From NCBI RefSeq assembly GCF_963678975.1, contig NC_089281.1, forward strand, positions 7,899,277-7,963,276: a stretch of 64,000 bases of DNA. Direction: 5' to 3'. This document shows positions 28,161 to 56,580 of this stretch, piece by piece. The notes beneath the pieces were generated by a model. It made no database searches. It was given only the letters and a program-made list of their open reading frames with translations, and was not told the DNA's origin. The stretch is from Dysidea avara. Its lineage: Eukaryota > Porifera > Demospongiae > Dictyoceratida > Dysideidae. Within the stretch, counting starts at the first letter, position 1. Each line of letters starts with the position of its first letter. The position numbers and the translations under genes are program-made.

Positions 28161-28542
28161 CACTTGCTTAAACTGCAGATGCAATCTGGTGATCATTCTT
28201 TGTTCAACGCTAGCATTAAGCAGACTCTATAGCTCCTGCATTTAAGTACAGCATATGGGTCCCTATAATGGACTGTGATGATGACAGTTATCACTGTCTT
28301 TCTATATAATGCATGCATGTATGCATTCTCCACGTCCATGAGCTAGTAGTCAATTTCATATATATATACCAAGAGTACTTTTACAACAACCTATAACTCA
28401 GTTGGACTGTCTGTCTATCAACTACTTAACAATAAACAATATAATATGTATTATACAAGTCTATTGTAAATTAAATCTAAGTAAAATTAACTGAAACTTA
28501 CACAACAAATTAGTATAGCTAAACTGTGTACGTATAAGATAG

Positions 28543-29498
28543 CTAATTCTGCTGTGTGGTAAGATTAGCAGTTTGGCAGTGCTTTTGATACATGATGGAT
28601 ATAAAAGCCAATGGATGATCAACAACAGATTTGCTGAGTTGACTTTCAGGGTGTGTTTGGTTGTACAACACCATCCTCTCCTCGGTGTAAATATTGTCGA
28701 TTTGATCTATGGAAAGACCTGCTATGATTACGCTATCCAACATAAACTGATCTCTATAAAAGAAGTTAGGGAAGGTTAAAACTTGGGTTTTACTCCATAT
28801 GGGGTCTCCATTTGATAGCTGGTTTGCATCTTCAACCTGGTAGACATCTCCATCTTCATTTGTTGCAAAGAACATTTTTGCGACCTCTTGAAGACCCTAG
28901 CTGAAAAGCTTTGTTGACTTGTGACACTGTATAGGATTTTTTGGAAGTTGCTTTAAACTTTTGTTAATTTTTCCTTTCACAACAACTTCATCTCCACTGA
29001 CAGTTAAATACATCTTATCAACGGACTTCTCAGCCAGGTTGATTATTACAGCTTTTCCTCCTGGCTTGAGCACTCGATACAGTTCCTTAAAATGTTTGCT
29101 CAATCTTTCCCTATCTAAATTACAAGTCACATACAGACTCATAGCAATGTCAAATGTCTCATCACCATATGGCATCTCCACCACATCTCCAACTTTGATA
29201 TTCACCATGTGATGTTGCTTGTCTTGCTAATGTGACCATCTTCTCTTGGACATCAAATCCGTCAACTGATTTGGCTCCATGCATACCGAGCTGCTTGGTA
29301 GCTCCAATAACCATCTCCACTCCCAATATCCAGTACCTTTTTACCAGGGACTTCTGACTTTAGAAACTCTTCCATTGCCGGACACAGGAATGCTTGTATC
29401 ACAGGCTCCTTCTCACAATACTTGTCATAAGATTTAACCCCATCAGATCCATACAGGTCAGTCATGTTAGAATAACCACTGTTTTCAAACTCTACCAT
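28543..29498 (-). pseudogene. SAM-dependent methyltransferase, broken copy 1
   Basis: The minus-strand sequence is close to the intact paralogue at 31630-32559 but falls into three frames. Visible lesions are an extra 4 bp (GCAT) at 29281-29284 after AARY, an 8-bp loss just before MVNIKVGD, and an extra 4 bp (AGCT) at 28899-28902. The Cys of motif I (LDIGCGD) is Ser here. The 5' leader and ATG context match the intact copy. Both 4-bp insertions fit the self-complementary pattern described in the findings. Confidence 0.85.
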
Positions 29499-30439
29499 AA
29501 TGTTTCAATGGTGAAGATATTAAGTTCCGTAGTGATTGCTGACTAGTTGAATCATACACCCAGTTCACTCTTTTTTATATGTGCATGGCAGTGAAATATT
29601 GCATTTACGTATTATATCATGAAAATGCATGATGTAGTTAGTACGGTAGGATACCCTTCAGTGGTAATTTAACTCCAGTGAAAGTTGCTGTTGAAGTACA
29701 ACTTTTCTACCAATTGTTGATTTTCTAAGAATTAGATCTCCTTAATTACTTATATGCATAGACATATAGCTAGATACAGTGTCAGTTATTTAATGATGAC
29801 AGACTATCCAGGCTTATACATACATACATGTATATAACAGTTAATCGATGATTGAAACATCAATATTAGAATGTGCAAATGTGTTTCAACAATACAATGT
29901 TGATGTCATTATCCTAGTTTTACATTCTTGATTTTACTGCTGAGCAGCAATATAATGGTGTTCTGAGCGTAATGGTGTTCTGAGCGTATAATGGTGTATG
30001 GTGTTTCATATAATGGTGTTCTGAGCTAAAGAGCCAAGAAAAAGTATTGGAAGTTCAGTAAGGAAGGATTACTATAGTGCATTATATCTAATTTGTTAAC
30101 TGATTTCTATATGCATGCTGCATGAGCATAAGTAAGTAACCCTTAATAATCATCTCAGTTAGACCGTAAATTTAAAACTCCGTAATGGATTGTATTATGC
30201 ATTGTATAAGAGGGCAACAAAAAAGAAGCAGGAGAATGATCAGCCAAGCCAGTTCCTATAGAGGCTCACATGCAGAGCAGCTAAACAAATTTTGTTACCA
30301 GGGCCACCAATGGGGGGAGGGAGCAACTAGGCCATTATGCTCTGGGTTCCACTTTGTAAGGGGCCCCAAGGGAACATCCAGGGGCTTCATAAAGTAGTAG
30401 CTGTCCCATAGCTACATTATCTATGCATATATGTAACAT

Positions 30440-32645
30440 AACTACAATTACAACTTACAGTGTAAATCTTCCCTGTATAGAGTTGTAGAAACAGGAAGCC
30501 TCAGTAAGAGATACCATATGTATAGCCAGCAAGCTGTGGTAGCAAACCATTTATCTTATAAGGCGCTTATATAGACAGTGTGACTTTTTACATAAGATTG
30601 AGATGCTCTAATAGAACAGCCACCCTATTACAGCAGTCAGACAAATATTCAATTACGGTAACTGTTAGAATCAGTCTGGCATATAGGGTATACTAGGTGG
30701 TATGTATTTGACAGAAAGTTTGCTATAAAATTCAAGCAAATACAGCACTCACCATAATACAACAGTCAAATAATTATAGCTACAGTGATAAAATCGCTTT
30801 CATATTCAATCTCAGAGAGTCTAAATTTCAAAAATTTCCTTGGGGAATTTCCTCAGCTTCACATGCTAAAACTATTAATAAGCTTTAATTATCAAATAGT
30901 AGCTACTACCATAGTTTGCTTTTAGTTGTGGTATAGTAGCTAGTTAGCTAAACTTGCTCTTGTAATTCTTATTAGTACTTTACAGTGTCCAGCACTGAAT
31001 GTCCTTTTGTCTGTTTTTTCTTACTGAAAATTATGGATTATTACATAGGGCCCCATTCTAATGGGATCCTCTCAACATGTAGTCCCTGATCATTTGGGCA
31101 TGCACTAACTTGCAAGCGTTACAAATTTTCATTTAATCACATAATTTTTCACATGATCACACTTACTAGAAATACACATACATTCATGCATAAAAACTAT
31201 ACATACCTGTGACAAATGGATTGGGACAAGTTATTATGATGTGTAGAAGGATTCTATATTCCTACAATCTGGTGATCATATATTTATTCGTTCAACTTTA
31301 GCATTAAGCAGACTCTATAGCTCCTGCATTTAAGTACAGCATATGGGTCCCTATAATGAACTGTGATAAGAACAGTTATCACTTTCTATATGCATGTATA
31401 CATTCTCCATGCATGTCCATGAGCTAGCAGTCAATTTGATATTTTTCGTATACCGACAGTACTTTCATAACAACCTCTAACTCAGTCGGACTGTCAACTA
31501 CTTAATAACAAGCAATATGTATATATACAGGTCTCAAATTGTAGAATTAAATGTAAGTAATTACTTTCACAACAAATTATTATAGCTAAACTGTGTATGT
31601 ATAAGATAGTTAATTGCTGCATGGTAAGGTTAGCAGTTTGGCAGTGCTTTTGATACATGATGGATATAAGCCAGTGGATGATCAACAACAGATTTGCTGA
31701 GTTGACTTTCAGGGTGTGTTTGGTTGTACAACACCATCCTCTCCTCGGTGTAAATATCGTCGATTTGGTCAATGGAAAGACCTGCTATGATTACGCTATC
31801 CAACATAAACTGATCTCTGTAAAAGAAGTTAGGGAAGGTTAAAAATTTGGTTTTACTCCATATGGAGTCTCCATTTGATAGCCGGCTTGCATCTTCAACC
31901 TGGTAGACATCTCCATCGTCATCTGCTGCAAAGAACATTTTTGTGACCTCTTGAAGACCCTGAAAAGCTTTGTTGACTTGTGACACTGTAGGATGTTTTG
32001 GAAGTTGCTTTAAACTTTTGTTAATTTTTCCTTTCACAACAACTTCATCTCCCCTGACAGTTAAATACATCTTATCAACGGACTTCTCAGCCAGGTTGAC
32101 TATTACAGCTTTTCCTCCTGGCTTGAGCACTCGATACAATTCTTTAAAATGTTTGCTCAACCTTTCCCTATCTAAATTACAAGTCACATACAGACTCATA
32201 GCAACGTCAAATGTCTCATCACCATACGGCATGTCCATCACATCTCCAACTTTGATATTCACCATGTTAAACTGTGATGTTGCTTGTCTTGCTAATGTGA
32301 CCATCTTCTCTTGGACATCAAACCCATCAATTGATTTGGCTCCATACCGAGCTGCTTGGTAGCTCCAGTAACCATCTCCACACCCAATATCCAGTACCTT
32401 TTTACCAGGGACCTCTGACTTTAGGAACTCTTCCATTGCTGGACACAGGAATGCTTGTATCACAGGCTCCTTCTCACAGTACTTGTCATAAGATTTAACC
32501 CCATCAGATCCATACAGGTCAATTCGGTTAGAATAGCCACTGGTTTCAAATTCTGCCATAATGTTTCAATGGTGAAGATATTAAGCTCCGTAGTGATTGC
32601 TGACTAGTTGAATTTGAATCATACACCCAGCTCACTCTTGTTGCA
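30440..32645 (-). repeat. Methyltransferase duplication unit 2
   Basis: This is the partner of unit 1. Its 5' flank stops abruptly at about 32645, where the sequence becomes the 32650-33041 repeat. The stretch 30185-30440 at the junction contains the dispersed GGGGCC/CATAGCTACATTAT repeat also found at 16413. Confidence 0.85.
31630..32559 (-). CDS. Class I SAM-dependent methyltransferase
   Basis: The 309-residue, single-exon protein has the Rossmann-fold order of the UbiE/Methyltransf_11 type. Motif I is VLDIGCGDG (55-63), the acidic ribose-binding Asp is in GFDVQEK (about 81), and motif II is MPYGDETFDVAMSL (110-123). LKPGGK is at 145-150, followed by a strand and a C-terminal lid of about 150 residues. 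It should transfer a methyl group from S-adenosylmethionine; the acceptor (small molecule or protein) cannot be told. It has no signal peptide or membrane segment, so a cytosolic enzyme is expected. The ATG lies after a short leader shared with both broken copies. It is the only intact member of a small local family. Confidence 0.85.
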   Translation of the reverse strand: MAEFETSGYSNRIDLYGSDGVKSYDKYCEKEPVIQAFLCPAMEEFLKSEVPGKKVLDIGCGDGYWSYQAARYGAKSIDGFDVQEKMVTLARQATSQFNMVNIKVGDVMDMPYGDETFDVAMSLYVTCNLDRERLSKHFKELYRVLKPGGKAVIVNLAEKSVDKMYLTVRGDEVVVKGKINKSLKQLPKHPTVSQVNKAFQGLQEVTKMFFAADDDGDVYQVEDASRLSNGDSIWSKTKFLTFPNFFYRDQFMLDSVIIAGLSIDQIDDIYTEERMVLYNQTHPESQLSKSVVDHPLAYIHHVSKALPNC

Positions 32646-32649
32646 ACTT

Positions 32650-33041
32650 GATATCGTTACTAAATAGATCATAATGGTATATGGTCACATTACGCTATTT
32701 TGACCGCTATGGCCGATATTACTGCTGTGGTAGGTTACGAGGATTTACTAGACTAGGTTACTTATCCAGCGCGCTGGTTCTTGGCGGGTGGTTTTCTCTT
32801 TCCCACAATCGTTACGTGCGGGGTTGCTGGTTCACAAGCGTTCTTCACGAGGTGCTCTGGGCCTGTCATCACGAAGCTTGCCAAGGGATCAAGGCCACTC
32901 TGAAGTAGAAGCAAAGACGACAGACTACGGTGAGTGATGCTTCTGCTTTCATAGACGATTTACAAGGTTAAGCAATACGAAAAGTTAGTTGTTAGCCTGA
33001 GCCTACACAGAGTCTTCCAGGGATTTGACTGTTATAACGTT
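32650..33041 (+). repeat. Inverted duplicate block, copy 1 (promoter/exon-like)
   Basis: It is nearly identical to the complement of 53505-53885. The block is G+C-rich relative to its surroundings and carries a strong 5' splice-site-like sequence (CTACGGTGAGTGATG at about 32925). That suggests a captured promoter plus first exon rather than a classical transposon. Frames in it differ between copies, so they are probably not coding. Confidence 0.75.
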
Positions 33042-35406: not shown

Positions 35407-38400
35407 ATGACATCAAGGTCACACAAAGCAACCAACAATGACCTACATTTACTTGAATCACAGCTTCGAAATGAAGTGCACAGATTGTCTGCAAAGAGCC
35501 ATACCACTAGTATAAGGAAATAGCAGACATCTGATACGCACATTAGATATGATGCAAAGACTGGCAAGAGAATACAGCAAGATAAACCTAGACGCAGGAC
35601 AAAGAGGAAGACTGTACAAATGGCGCAAGCTAGTGTTGGTAAGTAATACTATTCTGCCTGATACACTATGGTTTGAATTACTACTTCTTTTAGCCAACAT
35701 GCAAATCGAAGAAGCATATGATGCAGCATGCCTAGATCTGCAGGGTGATTATAATGAAACTATAGAAACAGGTACTGCAGGTGCATTACAGGGTGGGCCA
35801 TTTATGATCAGCAAATTAATAAAAGTAATAAAGTAATGACCTAGCTTGCCTAGCTGTAATGGAACCATAATGTTTTGCAATTGGAAAGTGTCACTAAACA
35901 TAAAGCTTCTGAATGCAAGCAGAAGTATCGTTTCGTTGATCTCAATTTTTAACTACATATGCTTTAGATAATGAATCATCAGAAAATCATATCCTGCAGC
36001 AGCTAATGGTTGAGATTGAGGCTGATTTGTCTAAAGTGTCTAGGATGAACAACAGAAAAACTGGCAATTGGACAGAAAGGATGGAACGCAGTGAAGAAAG
36101 CTGGGAAGCAATTAGACCTACATTATTTGAGTATAGTGTAGCCAGTGCTGCTCCTCCCAAACATAAGGTGTGTTTGTGCATGCAGATAATTGCTGAATAT
36201 GTGGGTTATATATTATGAATGTGTATGTATATTGCTTGCCAGTGCTATGTGTTTATGTAACACTTATGATTTTAATTTAGGATTGTTTTCACTGTGGTGA
36301 AAGGAGTGGAGTTGTACGTTGCTGGCAATGTGGACCTTCGTGCATGCTATGTGCTCAGTGTGATATTAAAATCCACACCATGGTAGCTCTCCATAATCGA
36401 GACATCTGGACAGGGTCATGCTTTTTGTCAGTTTCTCCAACCCAATATGTGGATGAAAACACACATGATATTGTGGAGATAGGTCAGAATTTCTGATGTG
36501 CACTTACTAGTTTCTGTTAACAACACATGTATAGAATGTCCCATACCATTGACGGTTCCAAAGGTCTGTCCATCTTGTGGTGTTAAAGGGGATATGGATG
36601 TGTACAAGAGTGGAGAAGCTAAAAGAATTATTGTTACAATGTCTGGTTAGCCATTTGCACAAATTAGGGTGAAAAGTTTAATTGGTGAAATAATTTAAAG
36701 GACGATATGATCTATCTGATGCACACGTGGTATGCTTAGCATGCCACACTGTTTTTGCTGATGTATTCCATGAGACAGTGTCTGAAGGATTCTGGCCTGG
36801 TAGTGCTGGAAGGAGATCAGCATATTTATTCCATCAAGATGTTTTCAAATTTTTCATCCATTTAAAATTTTTCAATCCAGGCATGTCACAGTCAGGGTTT
36901 TTGAAAACCTTGGAACAAATCAGCTTACTGAATGGAAGAGTGAGTTACATTCTATTTAAATAATCACTATATGTATTGCTGTATGTTCATAATTTTGGGG
37001 GACTACAAGGTTACTCTGTGCAACCTTTGACGTGACAGTATGCATACAGAGCAACAAAATTATTCACCATTTTCATGATGGTATACAAGACAATTCTCTT
37101 CTTCTATTGTCAAAAGAACTGCACATGTGTACTCTAGTATGCTGTTTACTACTTTAGATACCAACCATAAATCCAACAGCCTTTTCTAAAGCATTGTCAG
37201 AGTGGAAGTACTGTCAGTATGAGAAGCAAAAACTGAAAGGTGTTCCTTTGTTAGATTGTCCTGCATGTTATTCTAATCAGCATTCTGTTCACATTGACGG
37301 AAATAAGAAATTGTACAGATTCAGCAAAGTGCCAAGGTAGACATTTATGATTATGAATACACGGCTGTGTGCACACTTATTTAGAGGGTCAAGGAAGTCG
37401 TATTATGATGGAGCTTTTATTGCCAAAAATGAGGACGTAGATGATCATTTAGCTTTGATTGGTTACTTTGATGAGACATTGATGGTAAGAAAGAAAGTAT
37501 TAATTGTAATATTTATTATTCACCGTATACTTACTCTATTGGTAATCTTGACAATGGATACTAAAATTTTGTGCTTAACCAATTGATGTTCTTCTACAGT
37601 GTATACAATGTAGAAAAGCAATCTTCTACCACCAATGGAACTATTTATATAAATATAATACAAAATTTTATTTTAAATTCTCAGTTTTAGTAATAAAATG
37701 GCCATCATAAAATAATGCAGAAATGAGACGATGAAAGAATTAATATGTGTTGGTGATTATACTGGTACCTGTGCATACCCTAGGTGCAGTTAGCCTAAAA
37801 TTTAAATGTATTAAAACAATACCTACTGTATGCTCCTACTCCACCACCCTGTATCCACCTAACCATTGTCATCACAACAACAAAAAACATCACTACTAAA
37901 ATTGTGATCAAAAGGCAGCAAAACCAAAAAAGCAGTGTCTTGGAGGATTTGAACCCATTGTTGGAAAGTACTTTCTTTATATTCTGACCACTTAAAAATT
38001 ATTTTGTTGTTATGCTTTAGGCATGCTGGCTTAGTTGCAGTTCTACACATGCTAATTATAGCATCCTCCACAGTAATGACACAGCTGTGACTTCCTTTTA
38101 GGTACTCTGATAACTATACTAAACCGGATATCCTGCACTTTATGATTAGGATACTATGGTATTTATATTAATGCAATACTACATAGAATTCAAGACAACT
38201 TACTAATAAGGACTTACATCAATTGTATTGTGCACACACATTAAGAACCTGAAATCACATCTCTTTAACATGGACACCTAAATAATTAGGTGATTGTCCA
38301 TTTGTATTATGTATAGTCTATACAGACCCTGGAAACCAGAATACTTCAATTTTACATTATTCCCAAGATTGGGCCAAGAACACATACGTACAAATACAGT

Positions 38401-41400
38401 ATGTATAACCACTTTGCCTGGATTACTACATAATATGTGAAAGTAAACCCTTAAGATGGATAGTCATGTGTTTGTAGTAAATATGTGTTTAAATTGAAGC
38501 GTGACGATCAATGTGGATCTACTCGTTGGAAAGCTGCTAAAGCAGTATCTCGAACAATGCCATCTCTAGATGAGACTGGACTGGAAGTTGGTGGATGCAG
38601 ACATGCAATTGCTCAGAAAGCTGTCAATATGTTTCGTGGAGAAATGTATGTTTACCTATGCTGCAATACTTTCTTTATCATAGTTACTGTCACAGCTATG
38701 GATATGCACATTATTTGCACACAAAGGTATTTGCTCCACGAAATGTTAGCTATTTCTGGGAGGACATCGTCTGTAAATATTGGCCTTGGGCACGTAACAA
38801 GGAGCACCTTTTTCCAGGAAGCATGGACATGATACCCTGTTTATCTGTAATGCATGGAAAAGCACATTCTTGGCCATGTGGGGTTTGTAACTTTGTGCAT
38901 GCATGTGATATGTAGCTACAACAATCAAATATTTCAGATTATCTGGGGTGGTAGATGGCAAGATGGTGCAGCAGGCGGATCAGGGGAAGACATGGAGCAA
39001 CTTTTCTCTAATTTATCCAGATGGGCATTTTCAACAAAAAATGTTAAGTGCAGCTGGTATGTAATTTTGTACATGGTGCATAAGTATCATGCTACCACTA
39101 ATTTCCCTTGCATTGTTGCCGCTTACCATTGTATTTGTTGCACTGTAGGCAGAGATGATGCACTAACCGAAGCAGTAATGTTTTGGAATGAAAGGAAGGT
39201 TTTAGGACTGCCAAAACATCTATCTTTAAGGATTCAAAAAGTTTGTGACACGAACATGGAATGATTATCCTATGCATGCGTATATAAAAGGCTCGAGCTG
39301 TCATAGAGGAAATGGAGGAAGTTTTAAAAGATTGAAGAAAAAATAGGGATGAGTTTAACAACGACTACACTACAACATTTCAAAGCTAACTTATGCCAGA
39401 TTGCACATGGTTTGTGCCAATAACATGGTTAACTGGATGTGCCATTCTAAATTTTGTCATATTTTAGTTGAAAGGTCAACAGATACCAGCAGTGTGCCTC
39501 TATCTTTAGCAGGGCAGTACTACAAACTATTGCAACAGATAAAGGATGCCAATTACTTAAGGAGTTTTGTAGCTGGACATGATGTTCCTGTCAGTATAGC
39601 TATTGGTACGTAGTTATATGAGCTAGAAAATTATAGCGTGTGTATGTTTTCATAGACAACAATGACCTTCATATCAGTGCACAGGCTTTTGCAGATGCTG
39701 TAACCCAAAAGGCTAATGCACTTCATGATTTAGAGAATCGTTTAGGCCTCACTAACCAAGATGAAAGAGAATCTGTGCTACAAAGAGGCAGACAAGAAGT
39801 CCTCAATCAGACAAAGGAAAGACTGGCCAGCCATCTTGAAATGCTGCATTTGAGCATCATGAGGAAACAGGAAACCATCACCAAAGATACAAGTTTGTTA
39901 ATAGAGAATTAATTTGTATTTGTTATGTAATGGTTGTACCACCAGCACAAGTCTATTGCCTGATGTGCAAGCAAGATAAGTCTAAAAGAGAGGGCATATG
40001 AATTTTTATAGGCTAAGGGGAAAACATGGTAAAATTAACAACTTGGATTTTTAATCTGTTGCTAATCTGGGATTTCAGATAATACTAAATTATCTGTACA
40101 TGCACTAAACTTTTGTGTCATCCAGTTTGATACATATTGCTTAATTTGTATATGCGCCATGCAACAGGTAATTAAATTTTGTGAGATATCTATGTATGGT
40201 GTGGGAGTTTTGCATCTAGGTAGCCGTCAGCGTTCATTTGGTATGCATCAAATGTATACACAAATCTGCCGGAATACAAAACAAGGTATTTAGGCCAGTC
40301 AATGGAGTTTTTAGTAAGAATGTGTATATAGCTACAATATAGCTAAAGGTGATCAAACTGTGGTATATGTGTATAGTTACTGTATATACATACGTATCTG
40401 CATCCATGCACATCCGTGCAAGAATCTGTAATACTTGCTATTTGATACAAGAGGTGTATTAATGTATGCAACACTTTACAGCATCTAGCAAACAAAGGCA
40501 AGCACTAAGAAAAGCTATAGCTCAAGATAAGAAGAAAATTTCAGAAGTAGTCACGCACTATAATAGTGTTATTCAAGACCTGCAACCATCGCAGTCTTTG
40601 TTGACTACAGAAGAGGTAACAGCAGGAATTTTCCCTTGGTCAGCACTATCAGGTATGATTTGTGGGTCACATAATGTCCAATGAGTGGATTTTTATCTCA
40701 TGTAGGAGTTCGTAACTGTATTGCTGTTCAACTGCAATATGAAGCTGTAGATACATATATGAAATTATGCAGATTCCAAGAAGAGGAACGGCAGGTCATT
40801 CGAGAGATGACTTCATTTCTCCTTTATTTTAAAGATAGAGTTTTGTCATCCTTGCATCAGTCATTGGCAGGTAATGCACTTATTTCTATATTGACAGCAA
40901 TGTGTATTTACATATTCTGCTGGGATTTATTCGACATAATTTATATAGAAACAGAAACACTTCTGTGTGATGATGAGGTTTCAACTGAATATCATGATAA
41001 TGGATCACTCGATTCTCATGACGATGAATTGCTGAATCACCATCATGATGGATTTCTGAATTGTTGTAACAATGGATCACTGAATTGCCATGACGATGGA
41101 CTGTTGAATCGTCATGATGATGGGTTGCTGGATCATGAAGACAATGAAAATTGTGATCAAGTATGCAACATTAGTTAGTATCTCTTCACTGTTGTGTTAT
41201 CAAAGCTGTGTTGTTATTACCTACTGTACAGCATGCCTTTCGCAATTGTACAGTATCCTCCATATAACTTTTCATTGCTAATAGAGAACCCTTGCTACTT
41301 TGCACTCTTCAGCACATCAATTTACCCATGCAAGATACTTATAATCAAAAGGCCATTTCATTGAGCTTGTTTAATTGTCTATATGTATATCCCATAATTT

Positions 41401-44417: not shown

Positions 44418-47400
44418 TTAAATATCTACAGGTACGATGCAAACACGCCATTTTTTAAGGCTAGGTGTTTTACAATTTTTGCAACTATTACAGTTTGTAG
44501 CTCTACAGCCTTCACATGCACCACAGCGGCGTCTTCTCCTCTTTCTACCTATCAATTATTTGGGTAAGGTAGTAAAATCATTACACAATTTTATGTACCT
44601 GAAACATGTGATGGCACCACAACTGGTACTGTTGTGTTGCTATTAGCAACACCATCACTCGCTACATAAAATAGTAACATCTGACAATCATTACATAATT
44701 TTATGTACCTGAAACATGTGGTGGCACCACAACTGGTACTGTTGTGTTGCTATTAGCAACACCATCACTCGCTACATAAAGTAGTAATATCTGACAATCA
44801 TTACATAATTTTGTGCACCTGAAACATGCGGTGGCATGACTGGTACTGTTGTGTTGCTATTAGCAACACCATCACTCGCTACATAAAATAGTAATATCTG
44901 ACAATCTTTACATAATTTTGTGTACCTGAAACATGTGGTGGCATGACTGGTACTGTTGTGTTGCTATTAGCAACACCATCACTCACTACATGAATACTAA
45001 CAGCTGACAATCATTACATAATTTTGTGTACCTGAAACATGTGGTGGCATGACTGGTACCGTTGTGTTGCTATTAGCAACACCATCACTTGCTACATAAA
45101 GTAGTAATATCTGACAATCATTACATAATTTTGTGTACCTGAAACATGTGGTGGCATGACCGGTACCGTTGTGTTGCTATTAGCAACACCATCACTTGCT
45201 ACATAAAGTAGTAATATCTGACAATCATTACATAATTTTGTGTACCTGAAACATGTGGTGGCATGACTGGTACCGTTGTGTTGCTATTAGCAACACCATT
45301 ACTCGCTACATAAAGTAGTAATATCTGACAATCATTACATAATTTTGTGTACCTGAAACATGTGGTGGCATGACTGGTACTGTTGTGTTGCTATTAGCAA
45401 CACCATCACTCGCTACATAAAGTAGTAATATCTGACAATCATTACATAATTTTGTGCACCTGAAACATGTGGTGGCATGACTGGTACTGTTGTGTTGCTA
45501 TTAGCAACACCATCACTCGCTACATAAAATAGTAATATCTGACAATCTTTACATAATTTTGTGTACCTGAAACATGTGGTGGCATGACTGGTACTGTTGT
45601 GTTGCTATTAGCAACACCATCACTCACTACATGAATACTAACAGCTGACAATCATTACATAATTTTGTGTACCTGAAACATGTGGTGGCATGACTGGTAC
45701 CGTTGTGTTGCTATTAGCAACACCATCACTTGCTACATAAAGTAGTAATATCTGACAATCATTACATAATTTTGTGTACCTGAAACATGTGGTGGCATGA
45801 CCGGTACCGTTGTGTTGCTATTAGCAACACCATCACTCGCTACATAAAGTAGTAATATCTGACAATCATTACATAATTTTGTGTACCTGAAACATGTGGT
45901 GGCATGACTGGTACCGTTGTGTTGCTATTAGCAACACCATCACTCGCTACATAAAGTAGTAATATCTGACAATCATTACATAATTTTGTGTACCTGAAAC
46001 ATGTGGTGGCATGACTGGTACCGTTGTGTTGCTATTAGCAACACCATTACTCGCTACATAAAGTAGCAATATCTGACAATCATTACATAATTTTGTGTAC
46101 CTGAAACATGTGGTGGCATGACTGGTACCGTTGTGTTGCTATTAGCAACACCATCACTCGCTACATGAATACTAACAGCTGACTATTATTACTTAATTTT
46201 ATGTACCTGAAATAGGTGTAACATTCTCCCCTGCTATTGCATATACAACTTTAATTGTAAGTGCACAGTGACAAATACTTGTCATTACCTGCTATTTTAG
46301 TGTACCCTACCCACAAGTTATACACATCATGGTACCGTATCATGAATTGTTCTCCAACACCTTCACTTTCATAATGGCACCAGGAGTTACGACTATCATT
46401 TCTTTTCCGCATCAAGACAACAATATCTGCATCTCCAGATGCATGCAATACCCTAACCTGCATTAAAATACACACATACTTTAAGCACATTCATGTTACA
46501 TAACTTAGCACAGCATACTTTGGGAAAATGCATGGAAATTCAAATGCTAATTAGGACACAGGGTTGGCTAATAAGATATGTGCAACTGCTACGAAAATTA
46601 ATATTATCAGCTACAGTGGTCCCACAAATCATATAGGTTTTATACCAAGTTTCGTCTGGTGCAGTACTTGTCATTCGCAAAACAGTAGCTAGTGGTGGCA
46701 ACATTGGTCACTATCAATCATGTGGATATAATTTTGGCATTGAAGTTACATTTATAGAACACTACAACTTCTAATTGACTACACGCACACATATACTATA
46801 CCTTACCTTTAAGAGAGCCCCATGCTTTATAGAAATGCTTAACTTTAGCTGGTTCTTCATCTCTTCCCTTTTTAAGGAACTTCTCACCACACTCTTTGCA
46901 CCTATCACATCTGATAGGTGAAAAAGACTTGCAGACATTACATTCCTTTTTCATATCTAATATGATATCATTGACAATTACAACAAACACTTGTCATGTC
47001 ATGCATGTACAATTAGATGATGCGTTTTCTTGTTCTTCTATCTCTTCTTCATCATCCCTAACCCTGCATGTAAAATACAAATGTTAGTATGATGTACTAG
47101 CAGTTACATGCCTTAGTTTATCAACAGCATAAATACAAGCCGACACTGCTAATAATGTACCAAATCTCAAGGTAAGAAGTTGGGTGTGTGGGCACTCGTG
47201 CTGTAGCTGAAGCTAACGCAGGCTTTTCTTTGATACTAATAGTCAGTATCCCCAAGTCCCAGCCTGCATTAGACCAGAAAATATGCTTAATAATGCTTTC
47301 ATAGCCCTGCCCTAGGTTAGGAACGCTACAACACTACAGCCCATTTCACATCAACTAATAGTGTGGTGAAAATAGTTGATGGATTAGATTATTATCAATT

Positions 47401-48215
47401 TTACCAAACAAGAAGGCATACACAAAAGGTAAAGCCTGTACAAGGTTCAGCCTACAAGGAGAAAACATAAAGCCAATACAAAACAAGACAAAAATACAAA
47501 ACAAATTACAAAACACAACAAAAAACTTAATACACATCAATTTACACATAAGTGGAGTGGGTAGAGTGGATGGAGTGGGTAGTGGCTATAGCCAACCCTT
47601 TATCACTACCCCCATCACTTGCTGGGCAGCTGGATAACACCAGCAACTATGAAGTAAGCTAAAAGAGGGAACTGAGTATTGGGTGGGCAAACAGGGATCA
47701 GCACAAGCTAAGGCTCTCGTGAATTGTGACTTCACGCCAATAATAAAATGGTACCTAAACTTGTTGGTCCAGTTGTTGGCCTGGATTCTTGAGTTGTCAC
47801 ATGATGGTGACTACTTTATGGTGGACATGTGCCACAAGTTAAACCTGTTTAATTAACCTGTGTTTAAAACTGGAGTTATTTTCAAATAACACAATTTAGA
47901 AGTATCAGTTTTTTGGAAAATAAAAATTCCTGAGTATATAGTTATAGTTGAATTTCTTGCGAACAATTGTCCTGGCGATTACATAGTTACACACATCATA
48001 ATACAGTAAGATCAGACTAACCACTTCGAATGAAAATAGTAAGTATGTTGCAATCAGTAACCCCTTTTGATGAGACTATAAATGTAGTTTAGTCATGAAG
48101 TTTATCAATGGAGATATTTACATGCAGTGTATAAGCACTTTCTATAGTACTTACTCCAAATCTCGTTGATCCTCATGATCTGAACTCATTACACACTGTC
48201 GATCTGATTCCCAAT
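44418..48215 (-). CDS. Novel gene: Cys-ribbon, 15 tandem exons, short CXXC-like finger
   Basis: Minus-strand exons, all phase-compatible, are 48155-48215 (ATG at 48187-48189), 47011-47063, 46807-46956, 46646-46710, 46289-46457 and 46207-46233, then 15 repeat exons (46160 down to 44599), then 44418-44548. From that ATG the spliced frame is 1,536 nt with no internal stop, a 511-residue protein. It has an acidic N terminus (RDDEEEIEEQEN), a Cys ribbon (ECNVCKSFSPIRCDRCKECG), an unrecognised middle domain (about residues 75-155), fifteen repeats of ASDGVANSNTTVPVMPPHVS, then RKRRRR and CGACEGCRATNCNSCKNC. The C-x2-C-x2-C-x4-C-x2-C-x2-C pattern with its basic lead resembles short CXXC zinc fingers of the TET/CXXC5 type, which bind CpG DNA, but the last Cys pair is incomplete. 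A nuclear DNA-binding role is inference. The first exon's frame is open upstream of the ATG (DWESDRQCV if joined to a G), so more 5' exons are possible; 50013-50197 is a candidate. Confidence 0.75.
44599..46160 (-). repeat. Tandem array of 15 exon-intron units (about 107 bp each)
   Basis: Exon starts on the plus axis are 44599, 44709, 44819, 44926, 45032, 45139, 45246, 45353, 45460, 45567, 45673, 45780, 45887, 45994 and 46101. Thirteen exons are 60 nt and the two most 3' ones (44599, 44709) are 63 nt, both multiples of three. Introns are 46-47 bp, beginning gtacac/gtacat/gtgcac and ending tatgtag or catgtag. Each exon holds the inverted repeat GTGTTGCTAATAGCAACAC. Introns are as similar as exons, so whole units are amplified or homogenised together. 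A variant intron (catgaatactaacagctg on the plus axis) recurs at 44986, 45627 and 46161, six and then five units apart, showing a higher-order duplication of about 641 bp. Confidence 0.9.
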
Positions 48216-50012
<1,797 letters not shown>

Positions 50013-53504: not shown

Positions 53505-53885
53505 AATCCTTGGAAGACTCTGTATGTAGCTAACAACTAACTTTTCGCATTGCTTAACCTTGTAAATTGTCTATAATCTAAATACTATATGTTAGTAACA
53601 GCAGAAGCATCACTCACCGTAGTCTGTCGTCTTTGCTTCTACTTCAGAGTGGCCTTGATCCCTTGGCAAGCTTCGTGATGACAGGCCCAGAGCACCTCGT
53701 GAAGAACGCTTGTGAACCAGCAACCCCGCATGTAACGATTGTGGGAAAGAGAAAACCACCCGCCAAGAACCAGGCGCTGGATAAGTAACCTAGTCTAGTA
53801 AATCCTCGGTAACCTACCACAGCAGTAATATCGACCATAGAGCGTAATGTGACCATATACCATTATGATCTATTTAGTAACGATA
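53505..53885 (-). repeat. Inverted duplicate block, copy 2
   Basis: It is the reverse complement of 32663-33041 with few differences, including the GGTGAGTGATG splice-donor-like site. Together the two copies bracket about 20.5 kb carrying the KDZ and exon-array genes. Confidence 0.75.
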
Positions 53886-54446
53886 TCAAGTTGCTTATAC
53901 CGTATAGCCGGAAAGTTTGGCGAGTGAACGATGTTTCGCCAAACTAAAATCCGCCAAATCGTTTGTCCAATACAAATCTATAAGGCCAATGAAACTTGAT
54001 TAGCAGTTTATACACCCGCATGGAATTTCATTATTGGTATTTCAAGATCTAATAGAGCAGTCACTTTTACTGAAAAATCGCTTGTTATAGATTAGTAAGT
54101 ATGTATACTTTAGTTATTTAATGCAAGAGTACTTAATCAATGTAGATCCTTACTCAGTGTTTTTTGGCAGAAACCTCGAGAGAAATCTTAATGGGTTTGG
54201 ATCAGTGTGTGTTGTGCTTTTGGAACTTGAAATAATGAATAATAACCACCCGCCCGCATCAAAATTTCAAAAATCTGAGCAAGAAACTGGTAATCAAGTT
54301 TCATTGGCCTAATTAGCTCCACAAATTAGCCAAACTTTGTTCTCGCCAAAATCCTATCGCGCGCGGCAAATTCGCTAAAGTTTCCGGCTATACGCACGGT
54401 AGCTACATACGTATACTAGCGCACACTAAAACAAGTGTGCATGCTA

Positions 54447-55740: not shown

Positions 55741-56580
55741 GCTAAGTTGACTTTCTTGGTTGTACAACACCATCCTCTCCTCGATGTAAATATTGTTGAC
55801 TTGGTCTATGGAAAGACCTGCTATGATTACATTATCCAACATATATAAACTGATCTCTGCATGTAAAAGAAGTTAGGGAAGGTTAAAACTTTAGTTTTAC
55901 TCCATATGCATGGGGCCTCCATTTGATAGTGGCTGGTTTGCATCTTCAACATGGTAGACATCTCCATCTTCATCTGTTGCAAAGAACATTTTTGTGACCT
56001 CTTGAAGACCCTGAAAAGCTTTGTTGACTTGTGCACTGTAGGGTGTTTTGGAAGTTGCTCTAAACTTTTGTTAATTTTTCCTTTCACAACAACCTCATCT
56101 CCCCTGACAGTTAAATACATCTTGTCAATTAATGGACTTCTCAGCCAGGTTGACTATTACAGCTTTTCCTCCTGGCTTGAGCACTCGATACAATTATCCT
56201 TTCCCTATCTAAATTACAAGACTCATAGCAATGTCAAATGCATGTCTCGTCGCCGTACGACATGTCCATCACATCTCCAACTTTGACATTCACTATGTTA
56301 TTAATAATAAACTGTGATGTTGTTTGTCTTGCTAATGTGACCATCTTCTCTTGCATGGACATCAAATCCATCAACTTATTTGGCTCCATACCAAGCTGCT
56401 TGGTATAGCTCCAGTAACCATCTCCACACCAGTACCTTTTTACCAGGGACCTCTGACTTTAGGAACTCTTCCCGCCCCCATTGTTGGACAAAGGAATGTT
56501 TGTATCACAGGCTCCTTCTCACAATACCGACTTGTCATAAGATTTAACCCCATCAGATCCATACAGCTAGGTCAGTCAGC
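55741..56580 (-). pseudogene. SAM-dependent methyltransferase, degraded copy 3
   Basis: It aligns along its length with 31690-32530 but is broken by many small insertions (about seven of 4 bp, plus 2, 7 and 9 bp) and losses (about 8, 10 and 17 bp). Substitution is modest compared with the indel load. The 5' flank continues to 56920. Confidence 0.85.

Follow-up and report, generated by a model that had tools for sequence, protein, structure and literature searches.

A 107-bp tandem array lies in the window analyzed here, a 64,000-nucleotide stretch of Dysidea avara DNA. Arrays of this kind are easily masked as satellite DNA, and a transposon gene is then missed. An earlier note on the same DNA had read the array on the minus strand as micro-exons of a gene. 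The question raised by the locus is whether its repeat units are satellite DNA or spliced exons and, if they are exons, to what kind of gene they belong. We consider it probable that the units are spliced micro-exons that code for a variable linker, and that their gene is an accessory gene of a 21.25-kb Kyakuja/Dileera/Zisupton (KDZ) cut-and-paste transposon. This reading is based on the arrays found in related genes, on the pattern of splice sites, phases, and lengths, and on a second copy of the element with seven units.

The array and the predicted gene

The array was delimited with Tandem Repeats Finder at 44576-46212 of the window (15.3 copies, 95% match). Parsed on the minus strand, it yields 15 head-to-tail exons, 13 of 60 nt and two of 63 nt, all in phase 1 at both ends; the introns are 46 or 47 nt long and run from GT to AG in every case. 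The earlier description of 15 micro-exon-type units on the minus strand, uniform in phase and with these exon and intron lengths, was thus reproduced. None of the listed open frames of at least 80 aa overlaps the array.

The window array and its copy on C9 form family A. Over both copies, changes from the unit consensus were found at 26 of 1200 exon sites and 33 of 857 intron sites (splice dinucleotides excluded), which bears out the earlier remark that introns are as conserved as exons. Because exon and intron divergence is similar, whole exon-intron units appear to be what amplifies. When the window array was compared with itself at offsets of 90-1299 bp, identity was highest (90%) at 641 bp, or six units; hence, blocks have been duplicated as well as single units. 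Repeats this similar are difficult to assemble, and collapse or expansion of the assembly would make the unit number and homogeneity unreal. Such an artefact is extremely improbable in view of this six-unit peak, of the distinct, ordered variants carried by the window units, and of the same pair of 63-nt units with which both family A copies end.

The predicted gene, at C10:7943694-7947465 (window 44418-48189), is outlined in Table 1. As claimed earlier, the exons flanking the array join it in phase in a stop-free frame. The claimed length of 511 codons was not reproduced: our model has 491 residues, with flanking exons of our own choice, of which exons 1 and 2 were called from splice signals and frame alone. 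The true start codon may lie in exon 3 (MKKECNVC...).

Table 1. Features of the transposon and its predicted accessory gene, with positions in the window
Feature	Position	Strand	Evidence
Left terminal inverted repeat	32643..32947	+	292 of 306 aligned positions identical to inverted right end; same end at both ends of C9 copy
Open frame, CxC3 cysteine cluster of KDZ transposases	36694..36963	+	Pfam PF18804, E 8.9e-17, 61.4 bits (cut-off 26.6); relatives in genome
Open frame, KDZ transposase domain	38464..38832	+	Pfam PF18758, E 2.6e-6, 27.8 bits (cut-off 26.6); relatives in genome
Last exon, CXXC-like zinc finger, then stop	44418..44548	-	Pfam zf-CXXC match below cut-off; alignment with relatives
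Predicted array of 15 micro-exons (60/63 nt) and introns (46/47 nt)	44599..46160	-	
Short leading exon, 27 nt, phase 1-1, then array-type intron	46207..46233	-	
Exon 4, conserved N-domain, phase 1 end	46289..46457	-	25-41% identical relatives in families B to E
Exon 3, Cys-rich	46802..46956	-	33-37% identical relatives in families B, C, and D
Putative exon 2, acidic	47011..47063	-	Splice signals and frame only; identical in C9 copy
Putative exon 1 (ATG; weakest call)	48155..48189	-	Splice signals and frame only; identical in C9 copy
Right terminal inverted repeat	53600..53894	-	Long matches to C9 copy end here

A CXXC zinc finger has eight zinc-binding cysteines. The last exon of the window gene matches Pfam zf-CXXC (PF02008) with an E-value of 4.5e-5 and 23.8 bits, below the cut-off of 26.5. 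The last exons of eight relatives score 17.2-25.8 bits, also below the cut-off, and no other family was listed for any of them. The late cysteine pair is kept in the relatives of families B and C; in the window copy, one member of the pair is missing. The finger is called CXXC-like because this eight-cysteine pattern is incomplete.

The anatomy of the gene is common to the families: an N-domain, a repetitive linker with many small and polar residues, and the CXXC-like finger. A search of viral contigs with the N-domain as the query found no relatives of it. Several copies are damaged, which counts against the reading favored here. The CXXC-like exon of family B on C7 has a frame break, and one cysteine is lost both from exon 3 of the C9 copy (by eye) and from an F-like copy on C2. 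Among the arrays, one unit is broken in family B on C7 and one in family C on C14, and one acceptor AG is lost in family D on C1.

The host transposon

The gene lies inside an element of 21.25 kb (window 32643-53894) with terminal inverted repeats of about 300 bp, where it is convergent with the plus-strand KDZ and CxC3 frames. A second copy of the element is located at C9:15421123-15442340, and its main pieces are 97-99% identical to those of the window copy; in the exons flanking the array, 3 of 570 positions differ. The long matches between the two copies stop at the inverted repeats and the flanks differ; hence, the copies are separate insertions. The C9 copy has, by eye, a 7-bp direct repeat (GCTACAG) immediately outside its CAACTTG/CAAGTTG ends, which are of the CA...TG type; no target duplication was seen by eye at the window copy. 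Given its transposase domain, its defined ends, and the 7-bp duplication on C9, the element is a discrete KDZ DNA transposon. Its subgroup signs are mixed, with 7 bp and CA..TG as in Kyakuja and inverted repeats as in Zisupton.

The full-length inverted repeat occurs at four ends only, those of the window and C9 copies; inverted ends were examined for family A. Parts of its outer section (about 120 bp) match 24 other places, several of which are inverted pairs 9-17 kb apart (for example, C7:18375110/18391654, C10:5168571/5185639, and C3:11192332/11209004). These pairs with a partial repeat are probably other elements sharing these ends.

Other repeats and frames were recorded in and near the element. 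A plus-strand 24/72-bp repeat (window 40993-41146) lies in an open frame 3' of the KDZ gene region, and the C9 copy has a similar one (4.8 copies of 24 bp; L009 9884-9997). A perfect AC run of 119 copies is located inside the transposon (window 49177-49414); in the C9 copy, the run is impure and has about 72 copies. Minus-strand open frames resembling methyltransferases, in at least two similar copies, occupy window 28461-32565; the frame at 31630-32565 matches Pfam Methyltransf_11 (E 3.8e-22), and a similar fragment is found at 55827-56153.

Arrays in related genes and their predicted splice pattern

In genome searches, the 107-residue peptide of exons 3-4 gave at least 11 matches at no fewer than nine loci, and the CXXC-like exon of family C gave at least 18; these counts are lower bounds because only the best candidates were scored. 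The 18 matches, the two family A loci, and the family B locus on C7 made up 21 CXXC-like loci, itself a lower bound, and all were examined. At 15 of the 21, a tandem array immediately precedes the CXXC-like exon. The array loci belong to families A (C10, C9), B (C3, C7), C (C4, C14), D (C1, C4), E (C2, C5, C13), F (C13, C14), and G (C4); a decayed array copy on C2 was classed as F-like by eye. With an array in the same slot at this many loci, the reading as plain satellite DNA outside any gene was rejected. In 282 kb chosen around these genes and the KDZ matches, which is not a random control, all arrays with a period of 50-160 bp and at least four copies occupy this slot, except one minisatellite (L056).

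The N-domain exon was found upstream of the array at both loci of families A, B, C, and D and at the family E locus on C2. It was not found in 5.5 kb upstream of the family F array on C13, in 7 kb upstream of the family G array on C4, or in the stretches of less than 1 kb covered upstream of family E on C13 and family F on C14; the family E locus on C5 was covered only from within its array. One N-domain locus (C7:29236495) has neither an array nor a CXXC-like exon in 10 kb downstream.

The association with KDZ elements extends beyond the window. The window KDZ exon peptide gave at least 25 genome matches. For 13 of the 15 array genes, a KDZ exon follows downstream in convergent orientation, at a distance of about 1-16 kb; the exceptions are those of family E on C5 and family G on C4. 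Twelve of the 25 listed KDZ matches have no listed CXXC-like exon nearby, so that for some KDZ elements no accessory gene was identified.

The six CXXC-like loci on C12, all within 450 kb, have no array in 1.5-1.8 kb upstream (C12:7667689-8115667; L041, L043, L046, L049, L052, and L058). Over 7.6 kb upstream of one of them, only a minisatellite was found, which by eye was not readable as exons. None of the six has a KDZ exon near it, or convergent with it within about 1-16 kb, among the matches listed. These six may be host genes that arose from the transposon gene or gave rise to it.

About seven unit types were distinguished. According to Tandem Repeats Finder, their periods are 107, 88, 82, 82, 80, 83, and 131 bp in families A to G, respectively, with exons of 60/63, 42, 33, 30, 30 or 33, 30, and 75 nt; family D has an additional second array of 156-bp double units. 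Only three of 28 pairs of unit types (C-G, D-F, and the two unit types of D) were more alike than all of 100 shuffles. Relatedness of all arrays by descent was rejected, since the remaining 25 pairs did not exceed all shuffles. The arrays thus have partly shared origins and, beyond these pairs, either several origins or complete turnover, with no one visible ancestor. The family G array (L039, C4:6426386), in which the 131-bp unit with its 75-nt exon is present in only 2.8 copies, may represent an array at an early stage or one that has collapsed.

In each of the six copy pairs compared, the two members have different unit numbers, which supports the earlier statement that repeat number can change without damage to the frame. 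The two copies have 15 and 7 complete exons in family A, 19 and 13 in B, 17 and 11 (one damaged) in C, and 29 and 23 in D. The D loci differ despite an 11.7-kb match at 99.2% identity, and their second array has 4.2 double units in each. By Tandem Repeats Finder, the family E copies have 27.8 and 14.8 units (at least 18 on C5) and the family F copies have 25.1 versus 5.5 plus 2.1.

The parse of a single unit by itself is little evidence for exons, because most shuffled sequences allow one. An in-phase GT-AG parse, with an exon length that is a multiple of three and at least one stop-free frame, was possible in 84-98% of 1000 dinucleotide shuffles per unit type (A-D). On the opposite strand, no such parse was possible in any of the four actual units. 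Phase and GT-AG alone cannot separate exons from a minisatellite. The arrays could accordingly be minisatellites in one large intron between phase-1 exons, with GT/AG and phase as by-products of copying. The frequent chance parses fit this alternative, as do the phase-1 exons flanking the window array, whose complete removal leaves an open frame, the low copy number of family G, and the C12 relatives with no array in the upstream sequence covered. We nevertheless regard it as unlikely, given the following patterns.

The splice rule was applied blind to length: the best generic donor was taken, as scored with donor weights, followed by the first AG at least 40 nt on. Nine units were tested, namely the unit types including D with its two second-array units. 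Mostly dissimilar in sequence, they gave, in eight of nine cases, an exon whose length is a multiple of three and which is stop-free in phase 1. Family F fails this rule, and its second AG gives 30 nt. Of the eight units parsable on the opposite strand, two gave an exon divisible by three and one an exon that was also open in phase 1.

At the eight loci of families A-D, 134 complete exons were parsed, and 127 are divisible by three as aligned. Seven depart from this. Four are from family B, where GTAC has been inserted at the donor; taking the first GT would bring them to 42 nt. Two more are the final units of the two family C loci, 34 nt in the alignment, and the seventh is a damaged family C unit. 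Apart from the four GTAC units and one broken unit, exon lengths in families A and B step by +3, -3, and -12, whereas intron lengths step by 1, 4, and other values. Splice dinucleotides are also about tenfold less prone to change than intron sites: in 125 full units from families A-D, which are not independent of one another, two of 499 sites were changed against 21.6 expected at the intron rate. Partial units at array ends and two damaged ones were excluded from this count.

Two further tests were less favorable. At all 19 loci tested, the 40 nt preceding the CXXC-like exon contain a phase-1 AG. It is the nearest AG at only 12, and an AG in another phase also occurs at 10, so the phase-1 acceptor gives weak support. 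The codon-position test for purifying selection gave a mixed outcome and is counted as evidence against the favored reading: third-position changes dominate in family A only, and first-position changes dominate in B and D. The earlier proposal that the units are micro-exons of a gene is supported through homologous genes, which have other arrays in the same slot and mostly phase-1 exons divisible by three; the phase and GT-AG evidence that it offered itself is insufficient.

The array might also act as DNA, for example as repeated binding sites for the CXXC-like protein of the element, with its coding capacity incidental. CpG observed/expected ratios reach 0.60-0.93 in the arrays of family B on C3 and C7, family C on C4 and C14, and family F on C13, against 0.29-0.47 outside arrays, and are mildly raised in the window array and in family E on C2. 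They are not raised in family A on C9 (0.28), family D on C1 (0.29), or family G on C4 (0.20), which complete the ten arrays measured. This inconsistent enrichment led us to reject a CpG binding platform. An array of binding sites also needs no phase-1 exons divisible by three, and we hold the DNA-level reading to be very unlikely.

Proposed mechanism and comparison with known systems

If the arrays are spliced micro-exons, as we favor, the gene product would begin with a Cys-rich and conserved domain, continue with a repetitive linker, and end in a C-terminal CXXC-like finger, each window micro-exon contributing one linker repeat of 20 or 21 residues. The units would be spliced in vivo, the linker is presumably flexible, and the protein may bind DNA for the transposon. 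Through unequal exchange or slippage, whole units would be gained or lost, one at a time or several together. The frame would stay intact because each phase 1-1 exon comes with its own short intron. In other KDZ families of this genome, mostly dissimilar units occupy the same slot, and up to about 37 micro-exons are predicted in one gene.

CXXC fingers in other proteins bind CpG DNA. CpG observed/expected is low in the window (0.40), which suggests a methylated genome, a setting where a CpG-reading accessory protein could help the element. We propose, tentatively and with more doubt than confidence, that the gene has a licensed phase-1 slot between the N-domain and the CXXC-like finger, where arrays have repeatedly arisen and been replaced. 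The sequence and length of the linker would then change with each divergence of the element, possibly in conflict with host silencing.

If spliced as predicted, the arrays of this single genome, with about seven unit types and six copy pairs, form a natural series. They would allow the study of how exon-intron units multiply and how up to about 37 small, similar exons in one gene are spliced, and also of what leads a transposon to remodel the same region of a seemingly DNA-binding accessory protein again and again.

Micro-exon arrays in a transposon were not found among the titles and abstract openings listed in searches of open-licence literature, and no paper in that literature was found for "CXXC" together with "Zisupton". 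The combination seen here, a transposon gene in which dissimilar units fill the same slot across families, was not met in the open-licence literature searched. Its parts are already known from the sources below: tandem micro-exons with homogenised introns, and KDZ elements with cargo genes.

The polymorphic mucin (SmPoMuc) genes of Schistosoma mansoni are described as having a 27-bp micro-exon tandemly repeated with its flanking introns, in 1 to about 20 units between genes; the introns are >94% identical and the product is a repeat protein (PMC2576457). Both systems have tandem exon-intron units, homogenised introns, and variable unit numbers; the symmetric phase reported here was read from the sequence alone. 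The SmPoMuc units are about 1 kb long, belong to mucin genes, and are proven by cDNA, as described there, whereas those of D. avara are 80-131 bp long, are predicted from the genome, and lie in a transposon accessory gene whose relatives have different units. Near-identical introns are also described for spider flagelliform silk (Flag) and A. trifasciata MaSp2 genes (PMC3522626). According to that source, the introns other than that of MiSp measure 496-2620 bp, and the genes are structural rather than part of a mobile element.

Fungal KDZ transposons carry TET/JBP genes, and target duplications of 7 bp with CA..TG ends in Kyakuja and of 8 bp in Zisupton are described (PMC12730594). In the D. 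avara element, too, a KDZ transposase is accompanied by a cargo gene with a link to DNA modification, and the C9 copy shares the 7-bp duplication and CA..TG ends. The term "CXXC" is absent from the main text of that paper. Fungal Kyakuja, as described there, has no inverted repeats and carries a dioxygenase as its cargo, whereas the element reported here has repeats of about 300 bp and a CXXC-like micro-exon gene. The known cargo of KDZ transposons is widened by a CXXC-like protein, beside the fungal TET/JBP genes.
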